Notes under the pieces: model-generated
Databases searched by the model: none
What the model was told of the DNA's origin: nothing
What the model saw: the letters and a program-made list of their open reading frames with translations, nothing else
Made by a program: the position numbers and the translations under genes
Origin: Mobilibacterium timonense
Lineage (GTDB): Bacteria > Bacillota > Clostridia > Peptostreptococcales > Anaerovoracaceae
Reading direction: 5' to 3'
DNA: 64,000 nt
NCBI RefSeq assembly: GCF_900155555.1
Contig: NZ_FUHN01000007.1
Coordinates: 372,073-436,072 of the forward strand
Shown here: in pieces, positions 3,000 to 39,635 of the stretch
Position numbering within the stretch: the first letter of the stretch is position 1
Layout of the letters: every line of letters begins with the position of its first letter

Positions 3000-4994
3000 T
3001 TAATTCTCCTCTGCTGTCTCTTCCTCTGCATCATCTTCGTCATCGGAAAGAGTTGCCTTGATGCTCAGGCTGATCCTGTGTCTATCAGTATCGATATCCA
3101 TAATCTTGGCCTTGATGACCTGTCCGACCTGAAGCTCATCGCTTACGCTGTCAACCCTCTTGTTGGCGATCTCTGAGATGTGGACAAGACCGTCAAGTCC
3201 TGCCTCCAGCTCAACAAAAGCACCATACTCCTTGATCTGAACGACCTTGCCTTCGATGACCTGTCCAACGACATACTTTGTGCCGACGAGAGACCATGGC
3301 TCCGGCTGAGTCTGCTTCAGGCCCAGGGAGATCTTGCCCTTCTCCTCGTTCAGAGCGAGGATTTTGACGTTGATGATGTCACCGATAGACAGAACCTCCT
3401 GAGGGTGCTTGAGCTTGCCCCAGCTGATCTCGGAAATGTGGAGCAGTCCGTCTACACCGCCGATATCTACGAACGCGCCGTAGTCGGTGAATCTCATGAC
3501 CTTACCCTCAACGATGTCTCCAACGTTCAGGTTAGCCCAGATCTCCTCCACCTGCTTGCGCTTCTCTTCAACCAGTACAGCCTTTCTGGAGAAAACAGCC
3601 CTGTTGCGTCTATCATCGACCCTGATGACCTTGACATCTGCTCTCTGGCCGATGAACTCATCTGCCTTCTCAACATATCTGTCGGAGAGCTGGGACATTG
3701 GAATGAATCCTGTGACCTGCTTATACTGTGCGATTACGCCGCCGTTTACCGCTCTGATGAACTCTACGTTGATGGACTCCTTGTTCTCCATGAACTCCTT
3801 GAGCTCCTTGTAGTTCTCGTTCATCTCAAGCTTCTTCTTGGAGAGGGAGATCCCTCCGTCTCCTTCATCGGACTTCATCACCTTGGCCTCGACCGTATCT
3901 CCCACCTTGAAGACATCAGAAAGCTTCTGGCCTTCCTCAAGGGTCACCTCGTCCTTGCGCAGGATTCCGTCCTTCTTGCATCCCATGTTGATGATGACTT
4001 CATTATCGAGTACATCGATGACCTCGCCCTCTACGATCTCTCCTGGCTTCGGAAGACGCAGAGAATCCTCGATCTGATCCATGTAGTCAAACATAGGGTT
4101 CTTTTCGTCAGTAATAACATTCTGGCTCATACTGGAAATAACCTCCTTAATAATCCATGCAGGCGTAGATGCACCTGCGGTAATGCCTATTCTATTATAT
4201 TTGTGCACTTCTTTCAACTCTAAATCAGAAATATCTCGCACAAAAACGGCGTGTTTGCAATATTTTTTTGCGATTTCGTAAAGCTTTTTTGAATTGGAGC
4301 TGTTGGGATCGCCGATAACGACCATCATGTCCACTTCTGCGGCCAGCCTGGCACAGGCATCCTGCCTCTCCCTCGTGGCATTGCAAATGGTATTTTTCAG
4401 TTCATATCTGATCTCGTATCTATCAAGGACCCTCAGAATGTCATCCAGGAGCTCTCTCCTTATCGTGGTCTGGCAAACTATCAGCGGCAGTCCATCATCC
4501 TGTCCCTGTTCAAAATTTTCAGCCCACTTTTCCGCCTCTTCAACATCCTGGATGATCACTCCCTTCCACTGACACCAGCCGTTTGTGGCGATCACCTCCT
4601 GATGATCCCTGCTTCCAACGATGATCACCTTCCTGCCTTCTTCCGCAGCCTGATGGACCAGTTGATGGATCCTGCCTACGAATACACATGTGGTGTCCAC
4701 AAGATTCACGCCTATGGCTTCGGCCTTTTTATAAAATTCCTCCGGTTCACCGTGAGATCTTATGATTATTGTGTCGCCAGGCCCAGCCTGGTCGATGCTC
4801 TGGATCTCTCCAACGCCGTTCTCTCTCAGGCGCTCCGTCACGGCTCTGTTGTGTATGAGCTGCCCGCAGGTATAAAGACTGATCTTCTTATCATCGGGTC
4901 TTTCGTTGTTCAGGCGGATCTGTTCCTCCGTAAGCTCGATCGCTCTTCTGACGCCAAAGCAAAAGCCTGCATGATCTGCTGTAATTATTTCCAA
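3000..4994 (-). CDS. ispH: Fused 4-hydroxy-3-methylbut-2-enyl diphosphate reductase (IspH) and ribosomal protein S1-like protein
   Basis: A 664-residue two-part protein. Residues 1-285 are IspH, the last enzyme of the MEP isoprenoid pathway, which reduces HMBPP to IPP and DMAPP with a [4Fe-4S] cluster. The three cluster cysteines are visible as Cys12 (GFCFGVRRA), Cys103 (DTTC) and Cys204 (NTICNATRERQDA). Residues about 317-650 hold four S1 RNA-binding repeats, ending in an acidic tail. This fusion is well known in Clostridia. The open frame runs 73 codons further upstream into eno, but that part is an out-of-frame shadow. The true start is TTG at 4994, preceded by AGGAG at about nine bases. 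ispG and dxr of the same pathway lie elsewhere in the window. Confidence 0.95.
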   Translation of the reverse strand: MEIITADHAGFCFGVRRAIELTEEQIRLNNERPDDKKISLYTCGQLIHNRAVTERLRENGVGEIQSIDQAGPGDTIIIRSHGEPEEFYKKAEAIGVNLVDTTCVFVGRIHQLVHQAAEEGRKVIIVGSRDHQEVIATNGWCQWKGVIIQDVEEAEKWAENFEQGQDDGLPLIVCQTTIRRELLDDILRVLDRYEIRYELKNTICNATRERQDACARLAAEVDMMVVIGDPNSSNSKKLYEIAKKYCKHAVFVRDISDLELKEVHKYNRIGITAGASTPAWIIKEVISSMSQNVITDEKNPMFDYMDQIEDSLRLPKPGEIVEGEVIDVLDNEVIINMGCKKDGILRKDEVTLEEGQKLSDVFKVGDTVEAKVMKSDEGDGGISLSKKKLEMNENYKELKEFMENKESINVEFIRAVNGGVIAQYKQVTGFIPMSQLSDRYVEKADEFIGQRADVKVIRVDDRRNRAVFSRKAVLVEEKRKQVEEIWANLNVGDIVEGKVMRFTDYGAFVDIGGVDGLLHISEISWGKLKHPQEVLSIGDIINVKILALNEEKGKISLGLKQTQPEPWSLVGTKYVVGQVIEGKVVQIKEYGAFVELEAGLDGLVHISEIANKRVDSVSDELQVGQVIKAKIMDIDTDRHRISLSIKATLSDDEDDAEEETAEEN

Positions 4995-5020
4995 GCCAAA
5001 ATCTCCTGATTCTAAAATAT

Positions 5021-5041
5021 CCGGGCAGCAGCGCCGCCCGG
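5021..5041 (-). terminator. Weak hairpin between eno and ispH
   Basis: CCGGGC and GCCCGG form a 6-bp GC-rich stem. On the minus strand it is followed by ATATTTTAG, only a poor T tract, so it may be a leaky terminator or a processing structure between eno and ispH-rpsA. Confidence 0.4.
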
Positions 5042-5049
5042 TAAAATTC

Positions 5050-5067
5050 TCAGGTATCGATACCTGA
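5050..5067. promoter_or_regulatory. Perfect 18-bp palindrome between eno and ispH
   Basis: TCAGGTATCGATACCTGA is fully self-complementary over 18 bp and lies just downstream of the eno stop codon, about 56 bp before the ispH TTG start. It has no loop, so a dimeric DNA-binding protein site is as likely as an RNA hairpin. Function unknown. Confidence 0.4.
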
Positions 5068-5079
5068 CATCCGTTCCTC

Positions 5080-6363
5080 TTAATCGAACAATCTGCTTCC
5101 GATATAGTCTGCGGAATCCCCAAGGTCCTCCTCGATCCTGAGCAGCTGGTTGTACTTCGCAACTCGTTCGGTCCTGGCAGGAGCTCCGGTCTTGATCTGA
5201 TATGCGTTGACACCGACTACAAGATCTGCGATAGTCGTGTCCTCTGTCTCTCCGGAACGGTGGGAAACGATGGTGTTGTAGCCGTTCTTCTTTGCCAGAG
5301 CGATTGTCTCCAGAGTCTCGGAGATGCTTCCGATCTGGTTGAGCTTGATGAGTATCGCGTTTGCGCATCCCAGCTTGATGCCCTTAGCAAAGCGCTCAGG
5401 ATTCGTCACGAACAGGTCATCTCCGACGATCTGGATCTTGTCTCCCAGCTTCTCCGTCATCAGCTTCCAGCCGTCCCAGTCTTCTTCGTCCATTCCGTCC
5501 TCGATGGATGCGATAGGATACTGATCGCAGAACTTCTCCCAATTCTCCACGAGCTCAGCCGATGTAAATGTCCTTCCGGACTTAGGCATCTTGTAGACGC
5601 CCTTCTCATTTGTCTTCCAGCCGCTGGCTGCCGCATCTATGGCGATGACGAAATCGGTCCCCGGCTCATACCCGGAGTTCTTGATGGCGGCGACCATGTA
5701 GTCCAGCACCTGGAACTCATCTTTCAGGTTAGGAGCATATCCGCCCTCATCTCCCACTGCCGCGGAGTATCCTTCCTTTTTCAGATCCTTTCCCAGCTGG
5801 TGATACACCTCTGCGCACCATCTGAGGGCTTCCTTGAACGTAGGCGCTCCTACCGGCATGATCATGAACTCCTGGACATCGACGGTGTTCGATGCATGCT
5901 CTCCGCCGTTCAGGATGTTCATCATAGGCACAGGAAGAGACGTTCCGTTGATCCCGCCGAAGAATCTGTAAAGAGGGATACCGAGAGATGCAGCAGCGGC
6001 CTTCGCACATCCCAGAGAAACTGCCAGAATGGCGTTCGCTCCGAAGCGGCTCTTGTCTTTCGTGCCGTCCAGCGCCATCATCTTTCTCTCGATACTGAAG
6101 ACGTCCGATGCGTCCTCTCCGATGAGCAGGTCTCTTATCTCGTTATTGACAAAAGAAACTGCCTTTGTAACGCCCTTTCCGCCGTAACGGGTCTTGTCAC
6201 CGTCTCTCAGCTCCAGGGCCTCATAAATACCTGTGGATGCTCCGCTTGGAGTATCTCCGTATCCTACGGTCCCGTCCTCAAGATGGATCTCCGCCTCAAC
6301 GGTAGGGTTGCCCCTCGAATCAAGGATCTCGCGGCCAATAACGTCAACGATCTTAGTCCACAT
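5080..6363 (-). CDS. eno: Enolase (phosphopyruvate hydratase)
   Basis: A 427-residue cytosolic glycolytic enzyme that interconverts 2-phosphoglycerate and phosphoenolpyruvate. The family signature is plain: the N-terminal [13 protein letters not shown], the GASTG loop, the Mg2+ ligand regions ([31 protein letters not shown]) and the C-terminal [15 protein letters not shown] with the catalytic His. Length is typical. The open frame extends 34 codons upstream, but ATG at 6363 is the natural start because AAAGGAG precedes it at about nine bases and enolases begin at this point. A good promoter lies at 6437-6465, so eno is probably transcribed independently of the Tad genes upstream. Confidence 0.97.
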
Positions 6364-34459: not shown

Positions 34460-34939
34460 CTAAAAAACGACTGCCAGGTTGATCTTCGACACATCCTTTC
34501 TGTCGAATGACTCCTGACCGTCATCTGTGTCTATCACTATTCTGCCGTCCTCCAGGCCCCTGAGAGTGCCCTGGAACTGCTTCTTTCCGTTTGATGCCTT
34601 ATAGAGCTTCACTTCTACCAGCTCCCCGGCAAAGCGGGTAAAATCCCTGTCCTTGAGAAGCTCCCGATCCAGTCCCGGAGACTCCACTTCCAGGTCATAC
34701 CTGCCGTCTATTATATCCAGATCATCCAGAGAATCTCCCAGGTAGCGGGCGACATCCTCGCATTCCTCTATGCTCACGTACCGGTCTTCGCTGTCCTCGG
34801 GCTTGTCGAGCACCACTCTAAGCTTCCAGGCCGGGCCGGCCTTCTTGTATTCCACAAGATAGACCTCAAGGTCCTTTCCATCGATATGAGACTCCACGAG
34901 TTCTGTGATCTGACTGACGATCTGTTCTCTTTTAGCCAT
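34460..34939 (-). CDS. rimP: Ribosome maturation factor RimP
   Basis: A 159-residue 30S assembly factor. The two-domain RimP pattern is visible: VYLVEYKKAGPAWKLRVVLD, then YVSIEECEDVARYLGDSLD, DLEVESPGLDREL and a C-terminal SH3-like domain. The frame is open seven codons further upstream, but ATG 34939 preceded by AGGAG fits better. It is the first gene of the operon; a hairpin and promoter lie immediately upstream. Confidence 0.94.
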   Translation of the reverse strand: MAKREQIVSQITELVESHIDGKDLEVYLVEYKKAGPAWKLRVVLDKPEDSEDRYVSIEECEDVARYLGDSLDDLDIIDGRYDLEVESPGLDRELLKDRDFTRFAGELVEVKLYKASNGKKQFQGTLRGLEDGRIVIDTDDGQESFDRKDVSKINLAVVF

Positions 34940-34969
34940 GCTTCTCCTGTAAAAATGCATAACATAACT

Positions 34970-35081: not shown

Positions 35082-38000
35082 TTACTGGAAAAGCTCAAAA
35101 ATCGATACCTGCGAGGATTCCGGCAGTCCCTCGAAGAGTCCGCAGCTCTTCAGATCGTCGATGTTCGTCTGTGAAAGGCTGGTCCTGCTCCTCACGTCAT
35201 CAATGGTGGTAAAAGGCGCCTCATCGTACGCCTCGCACAGCGAAACTGCGGCGGAATGGCCGATGCCGCTGACCGCCCCGAACGGGATGTTCACAGTGCC
35301 ATCCACAACGTTGAACCTGTCTGGAGCAGAAACGCCAAGGCATGGCATGGAAAACTCTATGTCGCGTGAGAACATCTCGTACATGACCTCATATACCGTG
35401 AGATGAGCCTTCTGCTTGGCCGTGATACCCGGCCCCATGGCGTACAGTGCGTCCATCTCCCTCTCCACGGCCCTGATACCACCCTTTGCGGCCTGGATGT
35501 CGAAGTCGTCGATCTTCGTAGAGAGATATGCGCAGTAGAACGCCGCCGGGTAGTGCACCTTGAACCAGGCCATTCGTATCGCCATCATGACGTATGCCGC
35601 CGCGTGCGCCCTCGGGAAAAGGTATTTCAGCGTCCTGCAGGATTCCACGTACCACTCCGGAACGCCGTGGCTGTACATGAGCTCGAGCTCGTCCTCCTTC
35701 AGTTCCCTGTTCTTTCTCACGTCCTCCATGATCCTGAAGGCGTCACTGTTGTCCAGGCCCTTGTTGATCAGGTAGTTCATGATGTCGTCACGGCAGGAGA
35801 TGACCTCGTCTATCCCTGCGATGTTGTTCTTTATGATGTCCTGGGCGTTGTTGGTCCACACGTCCGTTCCGTGAGAGAATCCGGAGATCTTGATCAGGGC
35901 CGAGATGGTCTTCGGCTGTACGTCGTCAAGCATGGCCCTGGTGAAGTTCGTCCCGAACTCTGGAATGGCAAAAGTCCCGTGCTTGAACCTGTAATCCGGA
36001 TTCTTGATGTTCAGTGCGTCCAGAGACGTGAAAATGCTTATGGTGGCCGGATCGTCCAGCTTTATTTTGAGCGGGTCCACTCCCGTCATGTCCTGCAGGT
36101 GCTTTATCATCTGGGGCACATCGTGGCCCAGGATATCCAGCTTGAGCAGGTTCTTGTCTATCTTGTGGTAGTCGAAGTGTGTGGTGATGATGTCCACATC
36201 CCTCTTATTCGCCGGCTTCTGTATCGGACAGAACTCGAAGATCTCGTGATCGTCAGGGACGACTATGATACCTCCCGGGTGCTGGCCCGTCGTCCTCTTC
36301 ACCCCGCTGCACCCCTTCACGAGCCAGTCCATGTCGTACTTGCTCATGGGGATCTGCTTCTCCTCGGCGTAGTGCTTCACGTAACCGTAAGCCGTCTTCT
36401 CCGCTATGGTCGAAACGGTCCCGGCCTTGTACACGTTCTTTTCCCCGAAGATCACGCCCACGTACTTGTGGGCCTGCGGCTGATACTCTCCCGCGAAGTT
36501 CAGGTCGATATCAGGCTCCTTGTTTCCCTTGAAGCCGAGGAATGTGGCAAAAGGGATGTTCAGGCCGTTTTTGTTCAGCTCGTGGCCGCAGCGAGGACAT
36601 TTCTTGTCCGGCATGTCGAAACCAACATCGTATTTCTCAACGTCATCTGTGAATTCCAGGTACTTACACTCCGGACAGATGTAATGCGGTCTCAGGGGAT
36701 TCACCTCCGTGATCCCCGCCATGGCGGCAGCAAATGAAGATCCAACGGAACCACGGCTTCCTACAAGGTATCCGTCCTCGTTGGACTTCTTTACCAGCAT
36801 CTGAGCGGCCACGTACATCACGGCGTACCCGTTGCCGATTATGGACTTCAACTCCGTGTCCAGCCTGTCCTGGATCGGCTCCGGCAGGGGATCTCCGTAG
36901 ATGCTCTTCGCTGTTTCATAACAGGTGTTCTTGAGGGTCTCCTCCGCCCCGTCGATGTGCGGAGGGTACTTTTCGGCAGGCACCGGCTGGAACGACTCGC
37001 ACATGTCGGCTATCTTATTCGTGTTGTCGATGACTATCTCTTCCGCACGGTCTCCAAGATATGAAAACTCATCCAGCATCTCCTGGGTGGTCCTGAGATA
37101 AAGGCTGTCGGAATTCGTATCCTTGAATCCAATGCCGGCCATTATGATGTTTCTGTTTACTGCCGCCTCCTTAGTGGGATAGTGGGAATCCGTTGTGGCC
37201 ACTGTGAGCTTGCCGAGCCTGTCCGCACAATGGAGTATCTTCAGATTGTTGTTGATAAGGTCTTCTCTGGATGAAACTATTCCCTCATCTATCATGAACT
37301 GATTGTTTCCAAGCGGCTGTATCTCCAGGTAATCGTAAAAGCCGGCAAGCTTGTCCAGTTCCTCATCTGTTGCGCCGTTCTCCACGGCCTTGTATATCTC
37401 TCCCGCCTCGCAGGCACTTCCTATGATCAGGCCCTCTCTGTATTTGCTGAGGACAGATCTGGGAAGCCTCGGCTTCTTGTAGAAGTAGTCGATGTGGGAG
37501 TATGAGACCAGCTTGTACAGGTTCTTGAGGCCGGTCTTGTTCTTTGCCAGCAGGATGATGTGATATGTCTTATGTTTCTTGATGTCTATGTTCCCGTCTT
37601 CGTCCCATGCGTCCTCGTCGGGATAGAGGTATCCCTCCATTCCATAGATCACCTTGATGTTCTTTCCCTTACCTTCAAGTTTTTTTGCGGTGTTTGCCGC
37701 ATCAGGGAAAGCCTGGACGACGCCGTGGTCCGTGATGGCCACAGCCGGCTGACCCCAGGCCGCCGCCTGCTCAACCAGCTTGTCCACCTCATTGAAGCCG
37801 TCGTTATCGCTCATCCTGGTGTGGACGTGGAGCTCTACCCGGCGTTTTTCACCAGGGTATCTCTCCTCCTTGCAGACGTTTGGTATAACATTGATGTTCC
37901 TGGCATCCATCAGAGCCTCGTGCTCGAACCTGTCGCTCTTGATCTTTCCAGAGACACGGACCCTGTCACCCTCCGAAAGGTTCTCGCTTACTTCCGCAAA

Positions 38001-38549
38001 CTTTTCCGGATCCATGAAGCTCTTTACGCCCATGGCTCTGTTGTGGTCCTCGATCTCCATCATGAAGATGACGCCCTTTTTGGCATCGCCCTTGCGATCC
38101 TTGTATGAGATCTCTTTTCCCTCCATGGAAAAAACGTCTCCGTCCACAATCACCTCTTCATCTGTGTCGGTGAGGACGAAGGCATCGCCATAGCTCATTG
38201 GGCTTCCTTTTATCATGCGGCCCTTTATCACCGGCGACTTCTCTCCCGAAGAGTCACTGCTGTTATCGCTCTTTTTTTCATCGATGCGCTGAACGACAGT
38301 TCTGTCCTGCTCCAGGATCCACTCGAAGTCGAGGCCTTCGATATCCTTCATCCCCTTCATGTATTCTTTCTTCATCCGGGATTCCAGATATTTGGGCACA
38401 GAAAAATTGAGCCTGACGCTCAGTGTCAGGACTCCCGTATGCCTGTTCAGCTTCGCTTCCTGTATTTGAAAATTCAGATCTTCCGGAGCCCTGCCCTGGG
38501 ACTTCGCCAGCACCTCGGGGTCCAGGACTCCTGATGGATCATTGATCAT
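35082..38549 (-). CDS. polC: PolC-type DNA polymerase III alpha subunit lacking the inserted exonuclease domain
   Basis: A 1155-residue replicative polymerase; PolC is usually about 1430. Order: a shortened N-terminal domain (1-150), OB domain (about 158-225), PHP domain starting at RRVELHVHTRMSDNDG (237-250) with AITDH (271-275), zinc-binding motif CPECKYL and CPRCG (625-654), palm aspartates in PDIDLNFAGEY (Asp680, Asp682) and LLKLDILGHD (Asp805), then fingers and C-terminal helix-hairpin-helix regions. Between IYGMEGYLYP (about 310) and HKTYHIILLAKN (about 326), where PolC normally carries the DEDDh exonuclease (VVFDVETTG), only about 15 acidic residues remain. ispG ends 3 bp before its ATG. 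Polymerase residues look intact. Confidence 0.93.
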   Translation of the reverse strand: MINDPSGVLDPEVLAKSQGRAPEDLNFQIQEAKLNRHTGVLTLSVRLNFSVPKYLESRMKKEYMKGMKDIEGLDFEWILEQDRTVVQRIDEKKSDNSSDSSGEKSPVIKGRMIKGSPMSYGDAFVLTDTDEEVIVDGDVFSMEGKEISYKDRKGDAKKGVIFMMEIEDHNRAMGVKSFMDPEKFAEVSENLSEGDRVRVSGKIKSDRFEHEALMDARNINVIPNVCKEERYPGEKRRVELHVHTRMSDNDGFNEVDKLVEQAAAWGQPAVAITDHGVVQAFPDAANTAKKLEGKGKNIKVIYGMEGYLYPDEDAWDEDGNIDIKKHKTYHIILLAKNKTGLKNLYKLVSYSHIDYFYKKPRLPRSVLSKYREGLIIGSACEAGEIYKAVENGATDEELDKLAGFYDYLEIQPLGNNQFMIDEGIVSSREDLINNNLKILHCADRLGKLTVATTDSHYPTKEAAVNRNIIMAGIGFKDTNSDSLYLRTTQEMLDEFSYLGDRAEEIVIDNTNKIADMCESFQPVPAEKYPPHIDGAEETLKNTCYETAKSIYGDPLPEPIQDRLDTELKSIIGNGYAVMYVAAQMLVKKSNEDGYLVGSRGSVGSSFAAAMAGITEVNPLRPHYICPECKYLEFTDDVEKYDVGFDMPDKKCPRCGHELNKNGLNIPFATFLGFKGNKEPDIDLNFAGEYQPQAHKYVGVIFGEKNVYKAGTVSTIAEKTAYGYVKHYAEEKQIPMSKYDMDWLVKGCSGVKRTTGQHPGGIIVVPDDHEIFEFCPIQKPANKRDVDIITTHFDYHKIDKNLLKLDILGHDVPQMIKHLQDMTGVDPLKIKLDDPATISIFTSLDALNIKNPDYRFKHGTFAIPEFGTNFTRAMLDDVQPKTISALIKISGFSHGTDVWTNNAQDIIKNNIAGIDEVISCRDDIMNYLINKGLDNSDAFRIMEDVRKNRELKEDELELMYSHGVPEWYVESCRTLKYLFPRAHAAAYVMMAIRMAWFKVHYPAAFYCAYLSTKIDDFDIQAAKGGIRAVEREMDALYAMGPGITAKQKAHLTVYEVMYEMFSRDIEFSMPCLGVSAPDRFNVVDGTVNIPFGAVSGIGHSAAVSLCEAYDEAPFTTIDDVRSRTSLSQTNIDDLKSCGLFEGLPESSQVSIFELFQ

Positions 38550-38552
38550 ATA

Positions 38553-39635
38553 CTACTTCCCGCTTTCCTTTCTCGTGTCTTCTTCTATCATTTCTACCAG
38601 AACACCGATCAGCTCATTCTCAGGAAGGGTGCGGACGACCTCTCCCCCGGCGATGATCAGCCCCTGGCCTCTGCCTCCGGCAATGCCGTAATCTGCATCC
38701 TTAGCCTCTCCAGGGCCGTTTACCACGCACCCCATGATGGCGACCTTGAGAGGCCTCAGCCCCAGAGTCTCTCTCTTTGCAGCCAATGGTGCCAGAGCGT
38801 CCTCAGCTCTGTTGGCGAGACCGATGAGGTCCACCTGTGTTCTACCACAGGTAGGACAGGATACGATCTCGATGCTCCTCTTTCTCAGACCTGCAGCCTC
38901 CAGTATCCTCCTGGCACAGTAGACCTCCTCTACCGGATCGGTGGTCAGCGACACCCTTATGGTGTCACCTATCCCGGCAAGCAGGAGACCTCCGATGCCT
39001 ACCGCCGATTTGATTATGCCATTTCTTGGTGTACCAGATTCGGTAATGCCGATGTGGAGTGGATAGTCGGTCATGTCCTTCAGGAGCATGTGACAGTCGT
39101 AGGTCATCCTGACGTCCGTAGACTTCACGGACAGCACCAGCTGGTCGTAATCCATCTCCTCTATCATGCCGAGAGTCCTGACTGCGCTCTCCGCAAGCCC
39201 ACGGGCAGTGACCCTGCCATATTTATCCACAAGGTCCTTTTCCAGCGAGCCTGAATTGACTCCTACACGGATCGGGATGTTCCTCTTTTTTGCCGCATCC
39301 ACGACCAGTTTAAGCTTGTCTCTGCCGCCGATGTTTCCCGGATTTATCCTTATCTTATCGGCGCCGGCGTCTATCGCCCTGAGGGCCATCCTGTAGTCAA
39401 AGTGGATGTCCGCCACCAGCGGCATGTCGGTCTGCCTGCGCACCCTGGCAAAGGAATCTGCCGCCTCGTTGTCGGGCACCGTGACCCTGACGATCTGACA
39501 GCCCGCCTTTTCAAGCTCTCTGATCTGCGCCAGCAGAGCCTTTTCGTCTCTTGTGTCCACGTTTGTCATGGACTGTATTGAGACCGGCGCTCCTCCTCCG
39601 ATGAGGACGCCGCCGCAATTCACCTGTTTAGTCAT
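38553..39635 (-). CDS. ispG: (E)-4-hydroxy-3-methylbut-2-enyl-diphosphate synthase
   Basis: A 360-residue iron-sulfur enzyme of the MEP pathway, converting MEcPP to HMBPP. TIM-barrel part: PVSIQSMTNVDTRDEKALL, ADIHFDYRMALRAIDAGADK and IRINPGNIGG. The [4Fe-4S] cysteines appear in IVSCPTCGRTQVDL and IMGCVVNGPGEAKDADYG. Length is normal. It lies between rseP and polC; its product is the substrate of the IspH part of the fusion protein at 3000-4994. Confidence 0.96.
   Translation of the reverse strand: MTKQVNCGGVLIGGGAPVSIQSMTNVDTRDEKALLAQIRELEKAGCQIVRVTVPDNEAADSFARVRRQTDMPLVADIHFDYRMALRAIDAGADKIRINPGNIGGRDKLKLVVDAAKKRNIPIRVGVNSGSLEKDLVDKYGRVTARGLAESAVRTLGMIEEMDYDQLVLSVKSTDVRMTYDCHMLLKDMTDYPLHIGITESGTPRNGIIKSAVGIGGLLLAGIGDTIRVSLTTDPVEEVYCARRILEAAGLRKRSIEIVSCPTCGRTQVDLIGLANRAEDALAPLAAKRETLGLRPLKVAIMGCVVNGPGEAKDADYGIAGGRGQGLIIAGGEVVRTLPENELIGVLVEMIEEDTRKESGK

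Follow-up and report, generated by a model that had tools for sequence, protein, structure and literature searches.

The window (the whole analysed stretch of 64,000 nucleotides, from a gut clostridium whose 2.09-Mb assembly is 90% complete) carries polC, a gene for a PolC-type DNA polymerase III, in its usual neighbourhood, with the gene order dxr, rseP, ispG, polC, rimP, nusA and infB (Table 1). The 1155-aa product scored above the cut-offs of two NCBIfam equivalogs (NF001688, 1366.7 bits versus 873; TIGR01405, 1273 versus 1043) and matched the PHP, DNA_pol3_alpha, DNA_pol3_finger and HHH_6 families of Pfam. Its domains followed the PolC-type order, with the OB fold before the PHP domain and the HhH domain (HHH_6) after the polymerase core, and both the palm aspartates and the four-cysteine zinc site of a PolC-type polymerase were found. 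The preliminary description, made from the sequence, had listed the polymerase residues D680, D682 and D805, the zinc motif and the PHP histidines as kept, and all of them were present in our alignments. It had also noted a shortened N-terminal domain in a protein of 1155 residues, which we can now specify: in alignment with relatives of 1274–1300 aa, of the two N-terminal subdomains, one (the first) was kept and the second (about 100 aa) was gone. The C-terminal QVSIF, whose Q1147 was nearly invariant among 28 aligned PolCs, resembles what we take to be the beta-clamp binding motif of PolC, and this resemblance suggests a replicative role for the protein. Elsewhere in the window, a reverse-strand gene at 3000-5213 encodes LytB (IspH) joined to S1 domains, a fusion type for which NCBIfam already has a name.

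Table 1. Position of polC, its neighbours and the parts of its product (window coordinates; residue numbers of the 1155-aa protein)
Feature	Position	Strand	Basis or remark
polC, PolC-type DNA polymerase III without exonuclease insertion	35082..38549	-	1155 aa, ATG start, frame open throughout
ispG, adjoining polC upstream	38553..39635	-	
rimP, downstream of polC, followed by nusA and infB	34460..34960	-	
N-terminal domain, shortened (residues 1-115)	38205..38549	-	alignment with 1274-1300 aa relatives
OB-fold domain (residues 116-230)	37860..38204	-	weak Pfam OB match and AlphaFold model
PHP domain, first part (residues 236-310), ligands H241, H243, D250, H275, E305	37620..37844	-	alignments
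Junction loop (residues 311-328), site of the DEDDh exonuclease in other PolCs	37566..37619	-	alignment
PHP domain, second part (residues 329-500), ligands H330, C380, D454, H456	37050..37565	-	alignments
Zinc-binding cysteines C625, C628, C651, C654	36588..36677	-	invariant in 28-PolC alignment
Polymerase aspartates D680 and D682	36504..36512	-	present in PolC alignment
Polymerase aspartate D805	36135..36137	-	present in PolC alignment
Helix-hairpin-helix domain HHH_6	35121..35360	-	Pfam
C-terminal QVSIF (residues 1147-1151)	35097..35111	-	sequence

The two halves of the PHP domain were separated by a loop of 17 residues, compared with 195–212 residues (about 205) in the exonuclease-bearing PolCs of Clostridia, where recognisable exonuclease motifs lie within the insert; the third of these motifs, read by eye because a strict regular expression was too narrow, was HRAxxD or near it in 24 exonuclease-bearing rows. 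A Pfam search of the whole protein gave no match to RNase_T (PF00929) even at E<=1, so that no exonuclease was found elsewhere in this PolC. Given the short loop and the missing PF00929 match, we assign the protein to the exonuclease-less variant of PolC (a PolC with a contiguous PHP domain and no Exo) and not to the canonical form. The junction was as previously reported, with IYGMEGYLYP ending at residue 310 and HKTYHIILLAKN beginning at residue 326, and the central observation of a PolC without a DEDDh exonuclease between its PHP halves stands. The same junction was found in Baileyella intestinalis, a member of the same genus whose PolC is 85% identical (the genus is now called Allobaileyella; PMC12872784), and in Mogibacterium species, whose loci fall in the same clade and are placed in Anaerovoracaceae. 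Since the architecture is common to a genus and a family, an assembly or deletion artefact, which a full-length polC in related strains could have revealed, is ruled out.

The AlphaFold model (pLDDT 84.6, pTM 0.71), in which the OB fold is visible, matched Geobacillus PolC 3f2b (TM 0.92 by target length), PolC 9qpc (Z 51) and also M. tuberculosis DnaE1 7pu7. The fold matches to solved PolCs were 46–48% identical in sequence, and the polymerase core, OB fold, PHP domain and zinc site are the same as in the canonical PolCs of Bacillus, Geobacillus and Staphylococcus; the difference is the DEDDh exonuclease that those carry. The protein aligned in two stretches, split at the exonuclease, with the full-length 9qpc, and in one stretch with 3f2b, a ternary polymerase-DNA-dGTP complex from which the exonuclease had been removed for crystallisation. 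The deletion in 3f2b affects the same loop but was made in the laboratory, whereas ours is natural.

Exonuclease-less PolCs are already known as a kind, of which ours is a further case, so that the novelty implied in the preliminary description does not hold: Timinskas et al. (2013) reported Exo to be absent from 6% of PolCs, almost all of them from Clostridia and Negativicutes; an extra copy in Thermotogae was also without it, and the organisms concerned were noted to have DnaE1 as well (PMC3919608). Our protein resembles theirs in having PHP, Pol3 and HhH, no Exo insertion and a co-encoded DnaE, and differs in also having no second N-terminal subdomain; its genus is not named in the text consulted (PMC3919608). 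What is new here is the count of recurrences on a tree, the pattern at the PHP site and the genome-wide searches for exonucleases.

We sampled 179 PolCs from the relatives, the class and the phylum, of which 88 were without the exonuclease and 91 with it; these numbers are not frequencies, because an exonuclease-less query ranks exonuclease-less proteins first and the sample is therefore not random. The loop at the Exo site measured 6–32 residues in the exonuclease-less PolCs, the same range as in DnaE. On a FastTree tree of the 179 PolCs, built with the junction columns left out, the exonuclease state changed 13 times, and at least 10 of these changes were forced by well-supported branches; loss of the exonuclease has thus been recurrent. 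The tree alone cannot separate gain from loss, but repeated excision is much more plausible than repeated insertion of the same domain at the same site, though some of the events could instead reflect polC genes acquired horizontally. Within the family a single loss is possible, as a tree constrained to one clade gave p-AU 0.098 against the best tree. One exonuclease-bearing PolC (L019, G009:C21) was nested inside the exonuclease-less rows of the family and could reflect a second loss, a transfer or a misplacement. We also found one genome (G316) with two PolC-like genes (G316:C20 and G316:C243), neither with an exonuclease, and five small genomes (0.8–1.2 Mb; G063, G096, G165, G298 and G314) of one clostridial family, each with a single weak C-family match, which fits DnaE and no PolC.

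We then compared the nuclease site of the PHP domain, for which M. tuberculosis DnaE1 offers the closest precedent. The PHP domain of that replicase is its proofreading nuclease, nine residues hold three zinc ions, and mutation of the PHP aspartate D23 or D226 abolishes exonuclease activity (PMC5636811). The equivalents of these residues are intact in our PolC, which has nine out of nine PHP metal ligands, and like DnaE1 it has no DEDDh exonuclease built into the replicase; the mycobacterial enzyme is, however, of the DnaE and not the PolC type, and its PHP activity has been proved (PMC5636811), whereas that of our PolC is deduced by comparison. In Geobacillus PolC, with the DEDD Exo insert in a loop beside the PHP site, one PHP residue is changed and there is no PHP exonuclease activity (PMC5636811). 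The site (HHDHEHCDH) was intact in all 88 exonuclease-less PolCs of the sample and broken only in exonuclease-bearing ones (6 out of 91), five of the six having a D to N change at the position of D454; Geobacillus PolC has this same change, and our PolC keeps the aspartate. The association between an intact PHP site and the exonuclease state gave a Fisher p of 0.016, which overstates the evidence because the six broken sites come from about two lineages. One exonuclease-bearing PolC of the same order (L074, G048:C89) had a destroyed site, its nine ligand positions reading SLDRETDHR, and sat on a very long branch of the tree. The ratio of PHP to polymerase distances was 1.11 in exonuclease-less PolCs, 1.22 in exonuclease-bearing PolCs with an intact PHP site and 1.84 where the site was broken. 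Between the two Baileyella species, for which dN alone was used because dS was saturated or undefined, the PHP domain had the lowest dN of five segments (0.039; 0.054 for palm/thumb). The PHP domain thus evolves slowly where it may be needed. Its conservation is not specific to loss of the exonuclease, since the site is intact in nearly all exonuclease-bearing Clostridia as well, and the domain may instead be kept for structure or for pyrophosphatase activity. We found no report in the open-access literature of a biochemical test of PHP activity in clostridial or exonuclease-less PolCs.

The conservation of the site bears on the reading in which PolC has no effective proofreading and replication is error-prone, fidelity coming from base selection and mismatch repair. 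The genome fits such a reading in that it has MutS (the MutS_V domain was found twice) and no DEDDh exonuclease that we could find, but with the PHP site intact in all the exonuclease-less PolCs and highly conserved between sister species, we consider it unlikely. Loss of mismatch repair alongside the exonuclease was rejected, as MutS_V was found in 61 out of 61 relatives; mycobacteria, by comparison, are without MutS.

Proofreading in trans by a DnaQ-like protein, one of the options raised earlier, was not borne out for this organism. Profile searches of its genome gave no match to PF00929 (RNase_T) or PF01612 (Pol I-type exonuclease), although an assembly that is 90% complete may lack an exonuclease gene that the organism has; PF00929 was likewise unmatched in the genome of the sister species and in 44 out of 83 exonuclease-less genomes at least 90% complete (13 out of 16 in the family set, 24 out of 38 in the class set and 7 out of 29 in the phylum set). 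In the remaining genomes at that completeness, RNase_T was found in standalone proteins or in long proteins of DinG size, and for these organisms proofreading in trans is possible. Standalone RNase_T proteins of 200–330 aa occurred in some exonuclease-less genomes, several of them 36–49% identical to PolC Exo, and four (L197, L199, L200 and L201; 41–49% identical to PolC exonuclease domains) are possible detached proofreaders, judging from this similarity. In our genome the sole DnaQ-fold-like (DEDD-like) candidate was a YprB-type PF13482 protein, which we rejected as the replacement because such proteins are equally present in exonuclease-bearing relatives and do not track the loss. A separate DnaQ-fold exonuclease acting on PolC therefore seems quite improbable here. 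The search for a second replicase was positive: the genome has a full-length DnaE (G000:C2, an open frame of 1219 aa) with nine out of nine PHP residues, so that the reported co-occurrence of exonuclease-less PolC with DnaE also holds in this organism. It would nevertheless be surprising if DnaE were the main accurate replicase and PolC secondary, as raised by Timinskas et al., in whose text all Exo-lacking PolCs but one Thermotogae copy come from organisms with PolC and DnaE1 (PMC3919608), because our PolC has its full set of catalytic residues, retains the clamp-like motif and sits in a conserved operon context, and PolC is present in nearly all relatives.

Both PolC and DnaE have an intact PHP site, and their PHP domains are the likeliest candidate proofreaders. 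In Clostridia the PHP site is ancestral, the majority of PolCs have both nucleases, and a 2026 survey found mostly three active proofreaders (PMC12926913); loss of the exonuclease therefore removed a second proofreader and not the only one, and the loss of a redundant proofreader is the most economical account. We thus propose, with a probability of about two in three, that PolC has its own PHP domain as 3'-5' proofreader, assisted by the PHP domain of DnaE and by MutS, and that the exonuclease was lost as redundant. The inserted DEDDh exonuclease would have been excised in evolution from a working chromosomal PolC, leaving a short loop; the PHP domain of PolC would serve as the 3'-5' proofreading nuclease, as its counterpart does in M. 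tuberculosis DnaE1; the second replicase, DnaE, would contribute an intact PHP site as well; and MutS-dependent mismatch repair would clear much of the remaining errors. That the PHP domain is active and sufficient we infer from site integrity and analogy. Of the options offered in the preliminary description, a takeover of proofreading by PHP was thus the best supported by the pattern at the site, but "taken over" is too strong, because the site is intact in exonuclease-bearing Clostridia too. It is possible, if somewhat short of probable, that about ten or more lineages of Clostridia arrived independently at replication by PolC and DnaE without any DEDDh exonuclease and with PHP-only proofreading, each time through excision of the same domain.

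In a 2025 study of PolC in gut commensals, the RNaseT insertion served to define PolC and only sequences containing it were retained (PMC11963600); the whole exonuclease-less class of target proteins was therefore left out. The well-studied PolCs have either an altered PHP site or an exonuclease that dominates. The exonuclease-less PolCs with an intact PHP domain offer a natural experiment in which PHP proofreading can be considered by itself.
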